Assembly: GCA_021740625.1 (NCBI GenBank)
Contig: JAIOZK010000006.1
Span: 62,001-126,000, forward strand
Direction: 5' to 3'
DNA from: Bacteroidales bacterium
Lineage (GTDB): Bacteria > Bacteroidota > Bacteroidia > Bacteroidales > JAIOZK01
Length of the DNA: 64,000 nucleotides
The translations under genes were made by a program, and so were the position numbers. Below, piece after piece: positions 32,846 through 59,892 of the stretch. The notes under the pieces were generated by a model. It had not been told where the DNA came from, searched no databases, and saw only the letters and a list, made by a program, of their open reading frames with translations. Within the stretch, counting starts at the first letter, position 1, and each line of letters opens with the position of its first letter.

Positions 32846-33154
32846 ATGAAAGCTAAAACAAAACTTATTGAAAAATTGGATTCCCAATATTTTTGGGATG
32901 TTAATATGGAAAGCCTTAATGAGGAAAATTCAAAACGGCTTATCATTGAGCGGGTTTTTAGCCTGGGGAAGAAAGATGAAATGAAAAGTTTATTAGAGTA
33001 CTATGGAAGAGACGAAGTAATATCTACACTGCAAAATCTTAATTATCTTGATCCTAAGACCTTGAATTTCCTCTCAAAAATCTTCAATAAGCCAAAGACT
33101 AGTTTTAAATGCTATACACGGAAACAATTGACAAAACAACACTGGAACTCCTGA
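32846..33154 (+). CDS. DUF6922 protein, probable antitoxin of an AbiE-like pair
   Basis: 102 residues from the ATG at 32846. The DUF6922 pattern is clear: SQYFWDVNMESLNEENSKRL, IIERVFSLGKKDEM, LLEYYGRDEVI and YLDPKTLNFLSKIFN. Proteins of this kind are regularly encoded just before AbiEii-like nucleotidyltransferases, as here, and probably act as the antitoxin in place of AbiEi; that role is inferred. The gene overlaps the next by 46 bases in another frame, which couples their translation. The sequence is AT-richer than its neighbours, consistent with horizontal arrival. Confidence 0.72.
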   Translation: MKAKTKLIEKLDSQYFWDVNMESLNEENSKRLIIERVFSLGKKDEMKSLLEYYGRDEVISTLQNLNYLDPKTLNFLSKIFNKPKTSFKCYTRKQLTKQHWNS

Positions 33155-33735
33155 AATCACTGCAATCAAGAGATTACTTAAAAAAATTTTTACTTGTTGG
33201 AGGGACTGCTTTAGCTTTGTATACCGGTCATCGCAAATCAATTGATCTCGATCTGTTTTCTTGTCTTGATTTCAATAGTGCGGATTTATTAGAACAACTT
33301 CATCAGGATTACGACTATCAGATTTATCACTCAGCAAAAAACACTTTAAAAGGAAAGATCAAACAAATAAATGTTGATTTTCTTGCGCACCGCTATCCAT
33401 TAATTGATAAAATTAACACGACAAAAAAATTCAGGTTAATCTCAGAAAAGGATATTGTAGCCATGAAACTAAATGCGATTGCTACAAGCGGGCAGCGTTC
33501 AAAAGATTTTATTGATGTTTATTTCTTACTGGAAAAATATAGGATGGCAAAAATGCTAGAGTTTTATTCAAACAAATACAGGCAAAGTAATAATACACAA
33601 ATATTAAAAAGCCTGATATATTTTGATGATGTTGACCTCTCTGATTGGCCTGTTTTAATAAAAGAACCCAATCTAAAATGGCAGAATGTAAAAAAGCGAA
33701 TTGAAGAGAGAGTTTTAGAATTATTGGCTATTTAG
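33109..33735 (+). CDS. AbiEii/AbiGii-family nucleotidyltransferase toxin
   Basis: 208 residues. The nucleotidyltransferase motifs GGTALALYTGHRKSIDLDLF (residues about 28-47, with the G-G-T-A and D-x-D core) place it in the AbiEii/MenT group, which adds nucleotides to tRNA acceptor ends and arrests growth in type IV or related toxin-antitoxin systems, in part against phage. A second conserved element, SEKDIVAMKLNAIATSGQRSKDFIDVYFL, includes the K-x-x-A and D-x-x-D region of the family. The DUF6922 gene overlapping its start is the likely antitoxin. The last 8 bases overlap the end of the convergent dipeptidase gene. Confidence 0.82.
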   Translation: MLYTETIDKTTLELLKSLQSRDYLKKFLLVGGTALALYTGHRKSIDLDLFSCLDFNSADLLEQLHQDYDYQIYHSAKNTLKGKIKQINVDFLAHRYPLIDKINTTKKFRLISEKDIVAMKLNAIATSGQRSKDFIDVYFLLEKYRMAKMLEFYSNKYRQSNNTQILKSLIYFDDVDLSDWPVLIKEPNLKWQNVKKRIEERVLELLAI

Positions 33736-44891: not shown

Positions 44892-45290
44892 TTATTCTTG
44901 TAATCTCAAATTTGTATATTTTATCAATTGATTTATCAACTTTGGTAGTTGATCGAGCTTGTCAAAAACAGAATGAAATTGTTCTTCGGATAAAATTTTG
45001 CGAGCTCTGCTTTTTTCACTCCAATCCTGGGATTCATAAATGGAACCTTTACTGATTCTATAAAACCTTATTTTATCCTTTTTTGAATATCGTCCAAAAC
45101 CTTCTGCTATATTGGCTGATATTGAATCAATAGATCGGACGAATTGCTTTCCAATTGTATCTTTGGCAAAATAATCCCAATTTAACACAATATCCCATAC
45201 TTCATTACTCAGTTGAAACGCATGCTTATAAGCATCAATATCATTTAGTTTCAAAAAATACTTCTGCTTTTCATTAATAATTGTTTTCAT
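44892..45290 (-). CDS. Four-helix bundle protein (S23/Avd-like family)
   Basis: 132 residues of the TIGR02436 four-helix bundle family, first known as ORFs in 23S rRNA intervening sequences and related to the Avd accessory protein of diversity-generating retroelements. The pattern is clear: LNDIDAYKHAFQLSNEVWDIV, FVRSIDSISANIAEGFGRYSKKDKIRFYRISKGSIYES, then a final helix. No reverse transcriptase or variable repeat is near, and no rRNA, so neither of those roles applies here. Function unknown; the genes are frequent and mobile-looking in Bacteroidota. AT-rich. Flanked by inverted arrays of an 8-bp repeat. Confidence 0.85.
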   Translation of the reverse strand: MKTIINEKQKYFLKLNDIDAYKHAFQLSNEVWDIVLNWDYFAKDTIGKQFVRSIDSISANIAEGFGRYSKKDKIRFYRISKGSIYESQDWSEKSRARKILSEEQFHSVFDKLDQLPKLINQLIKYTNLRLQE

Positions 45291-53550: not shown

Positions 53551-54272
53551 AAGAAGAAAAAGTTGAATTAATCAGGATGATCGTGGATTTCTGGCACCGT
53601 ACCATGATGCATTATGCCATGTGGTTTGCAGAAGTTCAGCACCAGTTTGGCCGCGAGAAAGCGCTTGCGGTCATGAAAGAAGCACAAAAGAGAAGTTATT
53701 CCATACAGATGAAAAGACTGGGCAAGGTCCTGGGCTTTGAGATGGAGGAGGATATTCCGGCGCCCATGTTGAAAATGGATAAGGAAACGCTGACTAATCT
53801 CAGGAAGGCTGTTGCTGCAAACTGGCTGGCCAATGATGGTGTGTGGTTCCAGTCGGTGGAATTTAGCCGGGGCATGAACGATGCCAAAAGATGCAACGAT
53901 AGTGCCTGGGCACAGTTTTCCCCATTTGAGGCATGGTCGATCAAACGGCTGCTGGATTTACCCGAAAAGCCCGGGCTGGAAGGTCTTAAAAAAGCTTTGA
54001 ACCACAGATTGTATGCCTATATCAACGAACAAAGTTTCGAAGAGGAATCCGAAAATAGCTTTGTTTTCAAAATGAACGACTGCCGTGTTCAGAGTGCACG
54101 CAAAAGAAAAGGCCTTGATGATTATCCCTGTAAATCGGGTGGCCTGGTGGAATACACTACTTTTGCTGAAGCAATCGATGCCAGGATCAAAACAGAATGC
54201 ATCGGCTGTCCTCCCGACCCGCATCCTGAGGAGTGGTTTTGTGCGTGGAGGTTCAGTTTGAAAGAAAAATAA
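53547..54272 (+). CDS. DUF6125-like conserved cytosolic protein
   Basis: 241 residues, start overlapping the lyase stop, so translationally coupled. The first half is helical (WHRTMMHYAMWFAEVQHQFGREKALAVM) and is followed by LANDGVWFQSVEFSRGMNDAKRCNDSAWAQF. The second half contains conserved cysteines: NDCRVQSARKR, DYPCKSGG, ECIGCPPDPHPEEWFCAW; four to six Cys in this pattern suggest metal or iron-sulfur binding. It resembles DUF6125 / L-2-amino-thiazoline-4-carboxylate hydrolase-like families found in bacteria and archaea. Function unknown; coupling to HMG-CoA lyase suggests a part in the leucine-type pathway. Confidence 0.65.
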   Translation: MKEEKVELIRMIVDFWHRTMMHYAMWFAEVQHQFGREKALAVMKEAQKRSYSIQMKRLGKVLGFEMEEDIPAPMLKMDKETLTNLRKAVAANWLANDGVWFQSVEFSRGMNDAKRCNDSAWAQFSPFEAWSIKRLLDLPEKPGLEGLKKALNHRLYAYINEQSFEEESENSFVFKMNDCRVQSARKRKGLDDYPCKSGGLVEYTTFAEAIDARIKTECIGCPPDPHPEEWFCAWRFSLKEK

Positions 54273-54286
54273 AATATTCTAAGAAC

Positions 54287-54979
54287 ATGAAATTTGATCA
54301 AGAGTTTTATCAGGAAATAAAAAAAATCTATCCGGATAATATTGAATGGGGATTGGTTGGTATTCTTACAAAACAATCCAAAGTTTACACCTTATCATAT
54401 GATTCAAAAATACTATCTGGTATTTTTGAGATTTTTTGTGAACCTGTCATTAATAATATTGCCAAAGACAAAGGATTAACATTGGAAAAGACTGGCCAAA
54501 CAAGTTACCCAGACTTTACTTTGTTTGATCCCGGGAAGCCAAATGAAAAAATTGCTGTTGAAGTAAAATCCACATATCGAAAGTTTACGAAAGAAAATAA
54601 AATAAAAAAGTTCCATTTTACACTTGGCTCATATCGATCGTATATTCGAGACCCTCAAGGTAAAAAAGGTATACTCTACCCCTACAAGGAATACAAAGAG
54701 CACTGGATTATAGGATTTTTGTACACACGTAATCCTGCATGCAAAGTAACGGAGATTAAACAAGTAATTGAGGCATCTCAACTAAAATCTCCCTTCATGG
54801 ATATTGATTTTTTCGTACAAGAAAAACACAAAATAGCAGGAAAAACACCTGGTAGTGGAAATACAACAAATATTGGTTCTATTAAAACTGATAATATTGC
54901 AGATTTTAAGGCAGGCGAATCCGGATTTAAAACAAAAAAAGATTTTGATAATTACTGGAAAAATTATAAATTAGGCTAA
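54287..54979 (+). CDS. Type II restriction endonuclease, EcoRV family (predicted GATATC)
   Basis: 230 residues from the ATG at 54287. Clear EcoRV homologue by recall of that sequence: YPDFTLFDPGKPNEKIA, HWIIGFLYTRNPA and the recognition loop PGSGNTTNIGSI (G189, G191, N192, T193, N195), identical to the residues that read GATATC in EcoRV. The catalytic PD-ExK-type site is D76, E92, K94; EcoRV has Asp where E92 is. The C-terminus stops at YWKNYKLG, about 22 residues earlier than EcoRV (245 residues), so the last DNA-contacting tail is lost. The DNA is clearly AT-richer than the neighbours. Its methylase follows after 13 bases. Confidence 0.9.
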   Translation: MKFDQEFYQEIKKIYPDNIEWGLVGILTKQSKVYTLSYDSKILSGIFEIFCEPVINNIAKDKGLTLEKTGQTSYPDFTLFDPGKPNEKIAVEVKSTYRKFTKENKIKKFHFTLGSYRSYIRDPQGKKGILYPYKEYKEHWIIGFLYTRNPACKVTEIKQVIEASQLKSPFMDIDFFVQEKHKIAGKTPGSGNTTNIGSIKTDNIADFKAGESGFKTKKDFDNYWKNYKLG

Positions 54980-54992
54980 ACTATTTTGATTA

Positions 54993-55937
54993 ATGTTTAA
55001 GCAATCCTTGCCAAAATATATTGATAAAGTTTTTGTACCTCCTATTAAATGTCAGGGTATTAAAACCAAACTAGTCCCGTTTATAGCCAGATCAATCCAA
55101 TGGAATGGGAAAGGAAAATGGGTAGAACCTTTTCTAGGATCCGGTGTAGTATTGTTTAATATCGCACCTGAACGGGCTCTTGTTTCTGACACGAACGAAC
55201 ATATTATCAAGTTTTACAATGCTTTGAAAATTGGACAAATTGACGAGCATATTGTTAAAGAATACCTTGAAAATATGGGAGTAAAACTTTACAATGGGAA
55301 AGCAGATTTTTACTATGAAATACGAGAAGAGTTTAATAATGACGGTGATCCGCTAAAACTATTATTCTTGAATCGATCCGGTTTTAATGGCATAATGCGT
55401 TTTAATGGATCCGGAAAATACAATGTGCCCTTTGGACACAAACCGGAACGTTTTCGCAAAGCCTATATCACCAAAATCGTTAATCAGGTAAAAAATATTA
55501 GAAAACTCATTAGAAAAAAGGATTGGAAGTTTATTGTAAGTGACTGGAAAGATACTTTGGCGAAATGCGAACCTGATGATTTTGTTTATCTGGATCCTCC
55601 ATACATTGGCAGGCATACTGATTATTACAATGGTTGGAAAGAAAATGATGCTGCTGACTTAGCGTACACTTCCAGTAATTTGCCTTGTGGTTATGCTCTT
55701 TCGATGTGGAAAGAAAACAGGTACCGGAGCAATGATCATCTTGGTAATTTTTGGACTGATTGTGTTGAAAGAACATATGATCATTTTTATCATGTTGGTT
55801 CCAAAGAAAAATTCAGAAATAAAATCACAGAGTCTTTGCTTATCAAACCAGGATTTGAATCGAAATTTAAATCTGATAAAGCTTTCGAGAGTAAGATTGA
55901 TGAAAAAAACAAACAATTGATTATTTTTAATTCCTGA
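54993..55937 (+). CDS. Adenine-specific DNA methyltransferase, M.EcoRV/Dam type
   Basis: 314-residue N6-adenine methyltransferase of the D12/alpha class. The opening DKVFVPPIKCQGIKTKLVP is shared almost residue for residue with M.EcoRV. SAM-binding motif VEPFLGSGVV and catalytic DPPYIGRHTDYYNGW are intact, with FLNRSGFNGIMRFNGSGKYNVPF between. It should methylate the first A of GATATC and shield the host from the preceding nuclease. GATATC does occur in this window (for instance near 251), so protection is needed. No controller gene is seen. Isolated R-M island between the leucine locus and the AAA+ operon. Confidence 0.92.
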   Translation: MFKQSLPKYIDKVFVPPIKCQGIKTKLVPFIARSIQWNGKGKWVEPFLGSGVVLFNIAPERALVSDTNEHIIKFYNALKIGQIDEHIVKEYLENMGVKLYNGKADFYYEIREEFNNDGDPLKLLFLNRSGFNGIMRFNGSGKYNVPFGHKPERFRKAYITKIVNQVKNIRKLIRKKDWKFIVSDWKDTLAKCEPDDFVYLDPPYIGRHTDYYNGWKENDAADLAYTSSNLPCGYALSMWKENRYRSNDHLGNFWTDCVERTYDHFYHVGSKEKFRNKITESLLIKPGFESKFKSDKAFESKIDEKNKQLIIFNS

Positions 55938-56009: not shown

Positions 56010-58745
56010 ATGCTTTTTTACAAGGAGAAGAATCACGATAAGGGTGATAAAAGCCAGGACAAATATAAATTTAAATCCCTGCAGGTCTTCAACTGGGAAA
56101 ACCAGATCAACAACAAGAAATCCTATCGCACTGTTTTCGACCGGGCCGAGTTAACTTACCTGGGTGCAGAGTTTTGCTTTTACAATAAAAAATTTGATGA
56201 ATCCGACTGGAAAACAAAAGTAAAACTGGTAGCCTACCAATACGACAATAAAAACAAAGGAAAGAAAATCTGCACCATCGAACGGGATGTAGAAGTTCCG
56301 AAATCAGAAAATCTGGTTGTGGTTTCCGAAGGCTACGGCAATGACGACAAAGGAGAGTTCTGGAAAAAAGGCAATTATATCTGGGAGGCATTCATTGATG
56401 GAAAGTCTGTTGGTTTGAAAGAATTCCTCATAGAAGATGTAGGTGTTGTTACAAAACATGATAATCCCTATTTCAATCACTTTTCACTGAAAGTATATGA
56501 GGGACCCGATGAAAATGTCAGTATTGATCAGCGCAGGTACCTCCGGGTTTTTGACACGGGTAAAACCAGGTACATCTTCGGAGAATTGAAAATCGTGGAT
56601 TTCGTGGGCAGGATATGGCCCTGCGAATTATTCTTTAATTTTTTCGATGATACCGGACAACTTATCGGTCAAAGTGTATTCTTCGACTTCCTGGAACCGG
56701 AAGAAAATGATATGACTTATACCGTCACGGCCGGATGGGGAAACCAGGATTTTAACAACTGGAAACAGGATGATTACACCGTAGAGGTGGTCTTCATGGA
56801 CCAGTTGGTGGCCGTTTTGCCCTTCAGTGTTGCCGATTATGAAAAGGAGGATATCAGGAAACCCGATTCGGAAGATCCTGCCACAGAAGTGAATCAACCG
56901 GTCGAAGATCCGGATCCCACCACAGCTCAAGATGAGGAAACAACCGAAAAAACATCTCCCGCTAATGAGCGAAAATCGAACCGGGAGTTGCTGAACAAGG
57001 AATTGAAAAAGCTGGATGAACTGATCGGGCTTCAGGCTGTGAAAACAAAAATCAGGGAACACATCAGTTATATCGACTTTTTGAAGGTCAGGAAAGATTT
57101 GGGTTATAAAGATGAAGAGGAGATATCACTGCACAGCGTATTCACCGGCAATCCCGGTACCGGAAAAACCACGGTGGTGAAATTGCTGGGCCAGATCTAC
57201 AAACACATGGGCCTTTTGAGCAAAGGACATGTGCACACGGTAGAATCCACTGACCTGATATCAGGATACATCCGTCAAACCGGCAAGGACACACGGGAAC
57301 ATATCGAAAAAGCCAGGGGAGGAATACTGTTCATCGATGAAGCCTATATGCTTTATAAAAAGAAAGCAGAAAATGATTTCGGGGATGAAGCCGTTTCTGC
57401 AATCCTCACTGAAATCAGTGATGGGAAAGGCGATATCGCCATCATGGTGGCCGGTTATCCCAATGAGATGAATGAGTTTATCAATTCAAATCCAGGCCTG
57501 AAATCCCGTTTCAAGAATTATTTCCATTTTGATGATTATACCCCCGATGAGTTGATAAACATTGCGCAGTTTGCCGCCCGGAAAAAAAATGTCGACCTCA
57601 GTCCGGAAGCAAGAAAACTGGTCCATAAAAACCTCATCAGGTCATACAGGAAGCGCGACAAGACCTTTGGGAATGCCCGCCTTGCCTATCGCACAGTAGA
57701 TGAGGCCAAGATGGCCATGGGCATCCGTGTGATGAAAAAACTGGGCGAAGCGGAGATCAACAAAGAAGTGGTTAGCAAAATTGAAGCTGAGGATATCAAA
57801 GAAGTGCTCAAAGAAGGCCGCAAACAGATCATCGATATACCCATTGATGAAGAATTGCTGAATGAAGCCCTGATAGAATTAAAACAGCTCACCGGACTGG
57901 ACAATATCAAACAGGAGATCAACGACCTGGTCAAACTGGTGCGCTATTACCGGGACATGAAAAAGGACTTCAGAAAGGCTTTCAGCATACACAGTGTTTT
58001 TACCGGAAATCCGGGCACCGGAAAAACCACGGTCGCCCGTATCCTGGGAAAGATATATAAATCCCTGGGAGTGCTGGAACGTGGTCACCTGATCGAAACC
58101 GATGCCAGCGACCTGATCGCAGGTTTTATCGGGCAGACGGCCATCAAAACCAAGGAACGGATTACAGAAGCCATGGGCGGCATCCTCTTCATTGATGAGG
58201 CTTATTCCATCACCGAAGGGCGGCATCCCGATTTTGGCAAAAAAGCAGTGGCCACTTTGCTGAAAGAGATGGAAACGAACCGGGGTCATTTTTCAGTGAT
58301 CGTGGCCGGTTATCCCAGGCCCATGAAAGAATTTATTCAGTCGAACCCGGGATTGAAATCACGTTTCGACCAGACCCTGGTATTCAAAGACCTGGATGCC
58401 GAAGACCTTTACAAAATTGCAGTGGGAATGCTTGCCAGCCAGGACCTGGAGCCGGATGAAGAAGCCGCAGAACATCTCAAAAAATACCTGGAATTTCTTA
58501 CTGCCAACCGAAACCAGTACTTCGGCAATGCCCGCTCTGTGCGTAAGATCATCGACAGAGCTGTCAGGAGCCAGAACCTGCGGATGGCCGAAATGAAAGC
58601 ATCCGAACGAAGCGAGGAAAAAATGAAAACACTCATCCTTGATGACCTCAGGGAATTCAGGATCGATGATTTCACAGCTTTTCCTTCCATCGGCTTCAGG
58701 CTTGGCAAACAGGATGAAAAGGCCGAAATCAAGAAAGACAAATGA
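56010..58745 (+). CDS. Double CbxX/SpoVK-type AAA+ ATPase with duplicated N-terminal beta domain
   Basis: 911 residues. Residues about 20-280 contain two similar beta-sandwich-like units; compare SEGYGNDDKGEFWKKGNY (106-123) with AGWGNQDFNNWKQDDY (241-256). A low-complexity acidic linker (280-325) follows. Two AAA+ modules then have Walker A GNPGTGKT at 380-387 and 666-673, Walker B FIDEA at 441-445 and 727-731, and AGYP plus SRF sensor/arginine finger segments. CbxX/CbbX proteins remodel partner complexes (rubisco activation in the named case; unknown in most others). The start of the DUF7477-like gene overlaps the stop (ATGA), so the two work together. No rubisco genes here. Confidence 0.85.
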   Translation: MLFYKEKNHDKGDKSQDKYKFKSLQVFNWENQINNKKSYRTVFDRAELTYLGAEFCFYNKKFDESDWKTKVKLVAYQYDNKNKGKKICTIERDVEVPKSENLVVVSEGYGNDDKGEFWKKGNYIWEAFIDGKSVGLKEFLIEDVGVVTKHDNPYFNHFSLKVYEGPDENVSIDQRRYLRVFDTGKTRYIFGELKIVDFVGRIWPCELFFNFFDDTGQLIGQSVFFDFLEPEENDMTYTVTAGWGNQDFNNWKQDDYTVEVVFMDQLVAVLPFSVADYEKEDIRKPDSEDPATEVNQPVEDPDPTTAQDEETTEKTSPANERKSNRELLNKELKKLDELIGLQAVKTKIREHISYIDFLKVRKDLGYKDEEEISLHSVFTGNPGTGKTTVVKLLGQIYKHMGLLSKGHVHTVESTDLISGYIRQTGKDTREHIEKARGGILFIDEAYMLYKKKAENDFGDEAVSAILTEISDGKGDIAIMVAGYPNEMNEFINSNPGLKSRFKNYFHFDDYTPDELINIAQFAARKKNVDLSPEARKLVHKNLIRSYRKRDKTFGNARLAYRTVDEAKMAMGIRVMKKLGEAEINKEVVSKIEAEDIKEVLKEGRKQIIDIPIDEELLNEALIELKQLTGLDNIKQEINDLVKLVRYYRDMKKDFRKAFSIHSVFTGNPGTGKTTVARILGKIYKSLGVLERGHLIETDASDLIAGFIGQTAIKTKERITEAMGGILFIDEAYSITEGRHPDFGKKAVATLLKEMETNRGHFSVIVAGYPRPMKEFIQSNPGLKSRFDQTLVFKDLDAEDLYKIAVGMLASQDLEPDEEAAEHLKKYLEFLTANRNQYFGNARSVRKIIDRAVRSQNLRMAEMKASERSEEKMKTLILDDLREFRIDDFTAFPSIGFRLGKQDEKAEIKKDK

Positions 58746-59473
58746 TACCGCAAAAAAGCAGTACACAGCTTATCTTTGCTTCCGATGACTGGAACGAATG
58801 CTACAGCAGCATAAAGGAAAAGTGGAATCAGGGATATGTGATCAGTTGTGCCGATTTCGGCCGGGATCAATACTGCATTGTGATGAACAAAGGAACGGAT
58901 TGGGGTGAGCAGAATATCCTGATCAGCAATGATTTTCCTTATTTTGATATCAACGATTACTGGGACAGGCGGCTGGATATCACCCACATTTTCCGGGATA
59001 AAAACAAATGGTACCTGGTATTTACAGGAGATACGCCTGCCAGCGGGCAGGAATGGCAGTACAAGCAATCCTTCGGGGATATCAAGCGATTTATCAGGAC
59101 GCTGTGGGGTCAGCGGAAATTCATCTCCGCATGTTACCAGCACGAAAACAATTATTTCATGCTGATGTCGGGCGGGCCTGAATGTAAACAAAAGTGGGTG
59201 ATCAGCCAGGTGGTTCCTGAAAATATCATGTCGGGGAACTATTTGAAAGAATTGAATTGGTTCATCACTTGTTTGGCTGAAATCGATGGAAAACTGATGA
59301 AGGTGTTTTCAAGTGCAACCGCCATACAAGAGCAATTTATTCTGAGATCAACAAACATGAATGATCTTGCGGACAAACTGGATGAATACTGGGAAAAGGG
59401 ATATTTCATCAGCAATTGTGCCTTTGTCCGCGAAGATCTTTACCTTGTTTTCTCAAAATATGTGGTATCATGA
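58742..59473 (+). CDS. DUF7477-like W-x-x-G-Y repeat protein
   Basis: 243 residues made of about five imperfect repeats of roughly 45 residues, each with a W-x-x-G/R-Y/F turn followed by two strands: KWNQGYVISCADFGRDQYCIV, YWDRRLDITHIFRDKNKWYLV, LWGQRKFISACYQHENNYFML, LNWFITCLAEI and YWEKGYFISNCAFVREDLYLV. This matches the DUF7477 repeat known from bacterial and plant kinase-associated proteins, with no known activity; a beta-propeller-like or beta-prism fold is likely. Start overlaps the AAA+ stop by 4 bases and the stop overlaps the next start, so it is translationally coupled on both sides. It may be the substrate or adaptor of the ATPase. Confidence 0.7.
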   Translation: MIPQKSSTQLIFASDDWNECYSSIKEKWNQGYVISCADFGRDQYCIVMNKGTDWGEQNILISNDFPYFDINDYWDRRLDITHIFRDKNKWYLVFTGDTPASGQEWQYKQSFGDIKRFIRTLWGQRKFISACYQHENNYFMLMSGGPECKQKWVISQVVPENIMSGNYLKELNWFITCLAEIDGKLMKVFSSATAIQEQFILRSTNMNDLADKLDEYWEKGYFISNCAFVREDLYLVFSKYVVS

Positions 59474-59892
59474 GCCAGGCCTGTTATCACCTGATCGGGA
59501 GCTGCGGCATTTTTTGTTCGGCCTGCTATTCATACCAGAAAGGAACCTGCCTGGGATGCGGTTCTGAAAACAGGAACCAGCAGCGGATCAGCAAATGGAA
59601 CTGCCGGATCAGGAATTGTTGCAAGCAGGAAAAACACCTGAACTATTGCTTCGAATGCAAAGAATTTCCCTGCGATAAAATTTTGAAATTTGTTAAATCA
59701 CATCCCAAAGACAAAAAGTATACTTACCGCCACCAGGCCATACAAAACCTGGCTGACCTGAAAGCCATGGGCATTTCACAATGGCTGCTTGAGCAGCAAC
59801 AAAAATACACTTGCGGAGATTGTGGGGGTCAGGTGATTTTTTATGATGATTTTTGTGTGGATTGTAAGAAGAAGATTGATTTCGGGGAATGA
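59470..59892 (+). CDS. DUF3795 zinc-ribbon-like protein
   Basis: 140 residues from the ATG at 59470, which overlaps the previous stop (ATGA). The DUF3795 cysteine pattern is complete: GSCGIFCSACYSYQKGTCLGCG, then RIRNCCKQEKHLNYCFECKEFPC, and at the end a second ribbon CGDCGGQVIFYDDFCVDCKKK. At least three metal sites are likely. Function of the family is unknown; it is often encoded alone, so its place as the third gene of this AAA+ operon is informative. The stop TGA (59890-59892) lies inside the first copy of the 69-bp direct repeat. Confidence 0.8.
   Translation: MSQACYHLIGSCGIFCSACYSYQKGTCLGCGSENRNQQRISKWNCRIRNCCKQEKHLNYCFECKEFPCDKILKFVKSHPKDKKYTYRHQAIQNLADLKAMGISQWLLEQQQKYTCGDCGGQVIFYDDFCVDCKKKIDFGE

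Follow-up and report, generated by a model that had tools for sequence, protein, structure and literature searches.

A putative CbbX-like double-ring AAA+ chaperone with tandem Ig-like domains, and a candidate DUF7477 adaptor, in a Bacteroidales genome

We examined three overlapping genes in a 64,000-nucleotide stretch of DNA from a Bacteroidales bacterium (GenBank GCA_021740625.1, contig JAIOZK010000006.1, positions 62,001 to 126,000; hereafter the window, whose coordinates are used unless another locus is named). Gene 1 (56010..58745, + strand, 911 residues) encodes a tandem pair of immunoglobulin-like (Ig-like) beta-sandwiches, a disordered linker, two AAA+ modules of the CbbX/SpoVK type with AAA_lid_6, and a C-terminal tail bearing an [LIV]GF motif. 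Gene 2 (58742..59473, + strand, 243 residues) encodes a DUF7477 protein of about five repeats, a candidate client-binding adaptor, and gene 3 (59470..59892, + strand, 140 residues) encodes a DUF3795 protein with 16 cysteines, probably a zinc protein, whose membership in a system with the other two is doubtful. In the reading that we favor, with a probability of roughly one half, gene 1 specifies a remodelling chaperone with a CbbX-like double ring, which docks through its Ig-like domains, and the DUF7477 adaptor is a separate subunit.

All three reading frames are open and end at these positions, and they are joined by ATGA stop/start overlaps on the + strand at 58742..58745 (genes 1 and 2) and 59470..59473 (genes 2 and 3). 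An earlier reading made from the sequence alone (the sequence-only reading) had described this layout, a double CbbX-type ATPase with a duplicated N-terminal beta domain, and DUF7477 and DUF3795 partners, and had suggested that the three form a protein-remodelling or defence-type machine. The layout, the family assignments and the duplication are borne out by our analysis. Remodelling is well supported by clade membership, by intact motifs in both rings and by CbbX being the nearest structure solved; a three-gene system is not. Two further gene pairs in the window overlap in the same way (52690-53550/53547-54272 and 23718-24320/24317-25723), so the overlap marks an operon and nothing unusual.

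Both AAA+ rings are intact and of the CbbX/SpoVK/EccA type

Pfam families PF00004 and PF17866 each match gene 1 twice, above their curated cut-offs. Ring 1 (residues 330-600; 56997..57809, + strand) contains Walker A at residue 380, Walker B at 439-445, GY at 482-483, NPGLKSR at 494-500 and FGNAR at 553. Ring 2 (residues 615-882; 57852..58655, + strand) contains the same elements at 666, 725-731, 767-768, 779-785 and 838, respectively. Neither ring has lost any of the Walker A, Walker B, GY, NPGLxSR or FGNAR motifs, and each pore loop (GYIRQT in ring 1, with the clade-specific residues R422 and G425; GFIGQT in ring 2) carries an aromatic residue. G482-Y483/G767-Y768, N494/N779 of NPGLKSR and R557/R842 of FGNAR are conserved across 55 family members. 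The features listed by Delerue et al. for the SpoVK-CbbX-EccA clade (PMC10659427), a GY in sensor-1, an Asn upstream of the arginine finger and a second arginine finger, are all present; the spacing from the Asn to the conserved Arg, six residues here, departs from that list.

The closest solved structures in the PDB are CbbX and EccA1 by sequence and CbbX (3syk, 3syl and 3zuh) by fold. Against the NCBIfam models, gene 1 scored 472.6 bits for SpoVK (TIGR02881; cut-off 422.95), a score summed over two rings, 407 bits for CbbX (TIGR02880; under its cut-off of 459) and 372 bits for EccA (TIGR03922; under its cut-off of 467). From its sequence we place gene 1 in the CbbX/SpoVK/EccA clade, whose members are dedicated remodelling chaperones; it appears to be none of SpoVK, CbbX or EccA proper. 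Relative to its clade, every region of the gene 1 product (P0001) is somewhat more diverged and the linker most of all, which ruled out divergence focused on one domain.

Each characterised member of the clade differs from gene 1 in architecture. CbbX, the red-type Rubisco activase, shares the AAA+ core and lid and is the top match in both structure and sequence, and its mode of action, a ring that remodels by pulling on a tail, may apply here as well. However, CbbX consists of a single ring module without an N-terminal beta-sandwich, whereas gene 1 has two rings and the sandwiches, and no RuBisCO large chain is encoded in this genome to serve as the CbbX client. Reports of SpoVK, the MurG-activating sporulation chaperone, come from sporulating Firmicutes only, and its N-domain is short, made of three strands and a helix (PMC10659427). 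In contrast to this single-module protein, gene 1 has two rings, an Ig-like N-region of about 280 residues, and orthologues in Bacteroidota and relatives. EccA, the AAA+ protein of type VII secretion, shares the clade and its variable N-terminal domain, but gene 1 lacks the tetratricopeptide-repeat (TPR) N-domain of EccA, and no type VII secretion genes were seen nearby. Constant pairing with a Rubisco or type VII secretion partner would have counted against the sequence-only reading; neither was seen among the neighbours read.

The gene 1 product carries a tandem Ig-like pair

An AlphaFold2 model of the whole gene 1 chain (55 sequences) had a mean predicted local distance difference test score (pLDDT) of 85.9, and the N-terminal pair modelled alone (51 sequences) formed two beta-sandwiches with a mean pLDDT of 94.0. 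The first sandwich, N1 (residues 19-145; 56064..56444, + strand; pLDDT ~94), and the second, N2 (residues 150-280; 56457..56849, + strand), are homologous by hhalign, with a probability of 98.5%, an E value of 1.8e-15 and an identity of 21%.

The N-domain profile found no sequence relative in the PDB. In fold searches (Foldseek, VIA-align), many Ig-like sandwiches tied at Z ~10, among them AlkC, a GH2 sandwich, the Wzt carbohydrate-binding domain and factor XIII barrels. Since none of these stands out, we dropped the assignment of a specific relative and claim only the fold class. When 149 genomes of the order were searched, the pair's profile matched only long reading frames of AAA+ length, one per genome, apart from one short partial match.

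The gene 1 product would be a cytosolic double-ring AAA+ remodelling chaperone, with the Ig-like pair probably serving as its docking platform. By analogy with the clade it would form hexamers that, driven by ATP, tug at a tail or loop of particular client proteins, and the complex acted upon would be activated, released or dismantled rather than degraded. The SpoVK-CbbX-EccA clade has been described as one of dedicated chaperones whose N-terminal domains vary, and no association with a peptidase has been found for them (PMC10659427). The clade has been described as understudied, with three characterised members, each having one dedicated client or context; the gene 1 family adds a lineage that is widespread in Bacteroidota, which bears a dedicated tandem Ig-like domain outside any assigned family and keeps its tail motif invariant.

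Gene 2 is a candidate adaptor acting in trans

Gene 2 matches DUF7477 (PF24289) at 52.3 bits against a cut-off of 27. Its product (P0002) was said in the sequence-only reading to consist of W-x-x-G-Y repeats; about five repeat units are present, and the full motif is kept in just two. Among 295 genomes of the order, 18 encode DUF7477, this one included. Seven of the 17 others join it in one chain to a double CbbX-type AAA+ module, with or without TPR (L054 and L055, assigned by Pfam; L176, L179, L180, L181 and L182, assigned by sequence match). Six of the 17 carry caspase fusions, three carry proteins that read as having DnaJ-like CxxCxGxG motifs, and the last is unsorted; nine further genomes in the wider phylum have DUF7477 in long or single-domain proteins. 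From inspection of N-termini, every DUF7477 protein read that lacks AAA+ looks secreted, whereas the AAA+ fusions and P0002, which has no recognizable signal peptide, look cytosolic.

The DUF7477-(TPR)-AAA-AAA fusions resemble the pairing described here in combining a double CbbX-type ring with DUF7477, but do so in one chain instead of two, and they lack the Ig-like pair. In a tree of AAA+ domains, gene 1 nests within a clade of Ig-domain proteins (support 100/99) and the fused rings fall in another group. This topology rules out gene 2 as the broken-off half of such a fusion; the separate clades indicate that gene 2 was acquired beside a different ring. Because of the fusions elsewhere, the secreted appearance of the forms without AAA+ and this acquisition beside a different ring, we read gene 2 as an adaptor in trans: translationally coupled to gene 1, it would bind clients in the role that the fused DUF7477 may play in the sister family. 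A split DUF7477 subunit is also a handle for client discovery by pull-down.

Sequence profiles found no relative of P0002 among solved structures; two matches to designed TIM barrels extended over only 35-38 residues and were taken as chance. Viral carriage was discarded after viral contigs searched with A2 and A3 returned nothing, as did a search at DNA level for the motif canonical in DUF7477, and plasmid carriage after P0002 gave no plasmid match.

Two further observations concern DUF7477 in other Bacteroidales. A DUF6232 gene and a gene of about 550 codons (laminin-G-like in L054) repeatedly precede the DUF7477-AAA-AAA fusions (L054:442-2508, L176:5477-7635, L179:3429-5648 and L181:3582-5699), which makes this a conserved neighbourhood. 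The caspase fusions (L061, L062, L063, L177, L178 and L183; three by Pfam, three by reading) look, from their N-termini, like secreted DUF7477-caspase (C14) proteins.

The three genes are not a conserved system

Of 98 relatives sampled within the order, 13 have a full-length orthologue of gene 1 (42-52% identity). Scanning GTDB species with a pattern gave 151 confirmed matches, of which 80 were fetched, from Bacteroidota, Chlorobiota and Ignavibacteriota; more than 80 species of these phyla have an orthologue. The ring gene is usually solitary, and its neighbours vary between lineages. One decayed relative was seen in another genome (L042; G047:C160:27702-28211), a gene-1-type AAA+ sequence with in-frame stops and 55% identity over 170 residues.

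Several results weigh against a functional tie between gene 1 and its two partners. Protein and profile searches of the 80 flanks, in which the N-domain as positive control gave 80 matches, found no DUF3795 and no clear DUF7477, with one borderline DUF7477 match (L121, E 0.011). No other genome was found to have all three genes together, and the pairing of genes 1 and 2 is a one-genome case; the rings to which DUF7477 is fused lie, as described above, outside the group of gene 1. DUF3795 relatives with E < 1e-7, this genome aside, never occur in the genomes that have full-length gene 1 orthologues. The trio as a conserved system, as the sequence-only reading would have it, is therefore rejected; the link between genes 1 and 2 keeps the support of the fusions, and gene 3 has no such support.

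An alternative that we consider unlikely takes gene 1 for a chaperone of housekeeping or stress that works by itself; genes 2 and 3 would share no job with it and would have come to lie downstream by chance, in a variable stretch next to a restriction-modification (R-M) pair. Solitary orthologues with changing neighbours and the independent distribution of genes 2 and 3 speak for it. So does the state of a congener (G001), which lacks both a gene 1 orthologue and the R-M pair that precedes gene 1 in the window: an EcoRV-type nuclease (54233-54979) and a Dam-type methylase (54993-55937; 72 bp upstream of gene 1), both on the strand of the trio (+). In G001 the flanking blocks, HMG-lyase/DUF6125 and rodA/mrdA, are split over two contigs, which places the segment with the R-M pair and the trio at an insertion or rearrangement point. 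Against chance placement, the two 4-bp overlaps imply co-translation, and fusion of the same kind of AAA+ protein to DUF7477 in seven other genomes is hardly coincidental. The latter argues for the chaperone with a DUF7477 adaptor.

Gene 3 would be a small zinc protein, either a further adaptor or a mere passenger. It matches DUF3795 (PF12675) at 32.6 bits against a cut-off of 22.6, and the order is rich in DUF3795 relatives (present in 25 of 99 genomes). The triple zinc-ribbon-like architecture once proposed for it is corrected here to a possibility: the 16 cysteines could form three zinc sites. Other CbbX-type rings (L056, L065) have N-termini that read as zinc ribbons, so a zinc adaptor role for gene 3 is conceivable, yet its tie to the ring is the overlap alone. 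One of these loci (L056:1834-10881) comprises a Ser/Thr kinase, a zinc-ribbon protein with several CbbX-type AAA+ modules, an FHA-like zinc protein and a PP2C-like phosphatase, possibly a kinase-linked CbbX-type system (Pfam identifies the kinase and AAA+ parts; the others were assigned by reading).

Immune-type genes adjoin some orthologues of the gene 1 clade

In a tree of 55 sequences, an 18-member clade containing gene 1 is separated from a 37-member sister clade with a support of 100. The two differ in the first pore loop, where R422 and G425 are present in 18 of 18 members of the gene 1 clade and G and A at these positions in 37 of 37 members of the sister clade. Conflict-type genes directly adjoin five of the 17 other orthologues in the gene 1 clade and none of the 37 in the sister clade (Fisher p 0.002, a value that ignores shared ancestry; we count about three independent events).

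These five loci are candidate immune operons that include a gene-1-type ring. In L069 (6298-11991), a DUF4062-NACHT-TPR gene lies 150 bp downstream of the ring gene on the same strand. In L084 (126-6921), a DUF4062-STAND gene lies 78 bp upstream and a TIR gene 70 bp downstream, again on the same strand. L093 (2646-7831) and L117 (2585-7946) share the order TrkA_N-RyR, DUF4062-NACHT-TPR, ring on one strand, the TrkA_N-RyR gene of L117 being assigned by sequence match. L070 (6237-12109) has a TrkA_N-RyR gene 108 bp downstream of the ring on the same strand, followed by TIR and TPR genes on the other strand. Elsewhere in Bacteroidales (L292, L293, L297 and L298), TrkA-RyR genes occur near TIR or TIR-like genes with the ring absent; the ring would then be an optional addition.

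Such neighbourhoods suggest that at least one branch of the family may serve bacterial immunity. For the operon described here an immune role seems rather improbable; it would have the AAA+ protein remodel or reset NAD-consuming or signal-triggered immune complexes, or pull on phage proteins, as a defence-island variant beside the R-M pair, and it is not exclusive of a remodelling chaperone. In its favor are the same-strand DUF4062-STAND gene adjacent to the ring in L069, L084, L093 and L117, the TIR genes of L084 and L070, the TrkA_N-RyR channel of L093, L117 and L070, and the clade contrast. In the antiphage system Swarozyc, DUF4062 has been reported to be a TIR-like NADase (PMC13174449, preprint); phage RyR-domain proteins reportedly act on cyclic ADP-ribose immune signals (PMC13232231, preprint), and tandem SpoVK-family ATPases have been described in Type III-A CoCoNuT defence operons (PMC11090510). 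The CoCoNuT likeness is one of description, and its ATPase differs in setting, with VWA genes on its flanks in a McrBC-type operon. On the other side, the events are few, many members of the clade adjoin ordinary genes, and this genome has neither DUF4062, which adjoins four clade orthologues, nor an RyR domain. PADLOC, moreover, covers the trio with no family: it returned partial matches in the AAA+ region (IetA, TRIP13 and others), reflecting weak similarity of the core, and none for genes 2 and 3. The defence role raised in the sequence-only reading is circumstantial, resting on the R-M pair and on the neighbours of the five orthologues. A stronger version, in which the R422/G425 clade is a recurrent component of immune operons with NADase/TIR and RyR-channel genes and the R-M pair with DUF7477/DUF3795 replaces the NADase module here, is quite doubtful.

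The C-terminal tail motif is invariant

The gene 1 chain ends in a tail that is disordered in the AlphaFold2 model and contains an IGF motif (residues 894-896; codons 58689..58697, + strand). ClpX docks ClpP through an IGF loop. Retention of the tail motif, [LIVM]G[FY], in 55 of 55 family members despite the disorder could point to an unfoldase that feeds a peptidase docked via this tail, a very remote alternative since no peptidase gene was recognised beside the orthologues whose neighbours were read, a published analysis found no peptidase association in this AAA+ clade (PMC10659427), and binding inside the hexamer, or to an adaptor, would explain the motif just as well.

Surroundings of the operon

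The region at 54.0-56.5 kb of the window, which includes the R-M pair noted in the sequence-only reading, is AT-rich relative to its surroundings (32-38% GC). An AbiE-like pair had also been placed near the trio; an AbiEii-like nucleotidyltransferase gene is indeed in the window (33109-33735; PF08843, 52 bits), but at about 22 kb from the trio "near" is generous. The window also encodes a 23S rRNA-intervening-sequence protein (PF05635) at 44892-45290.

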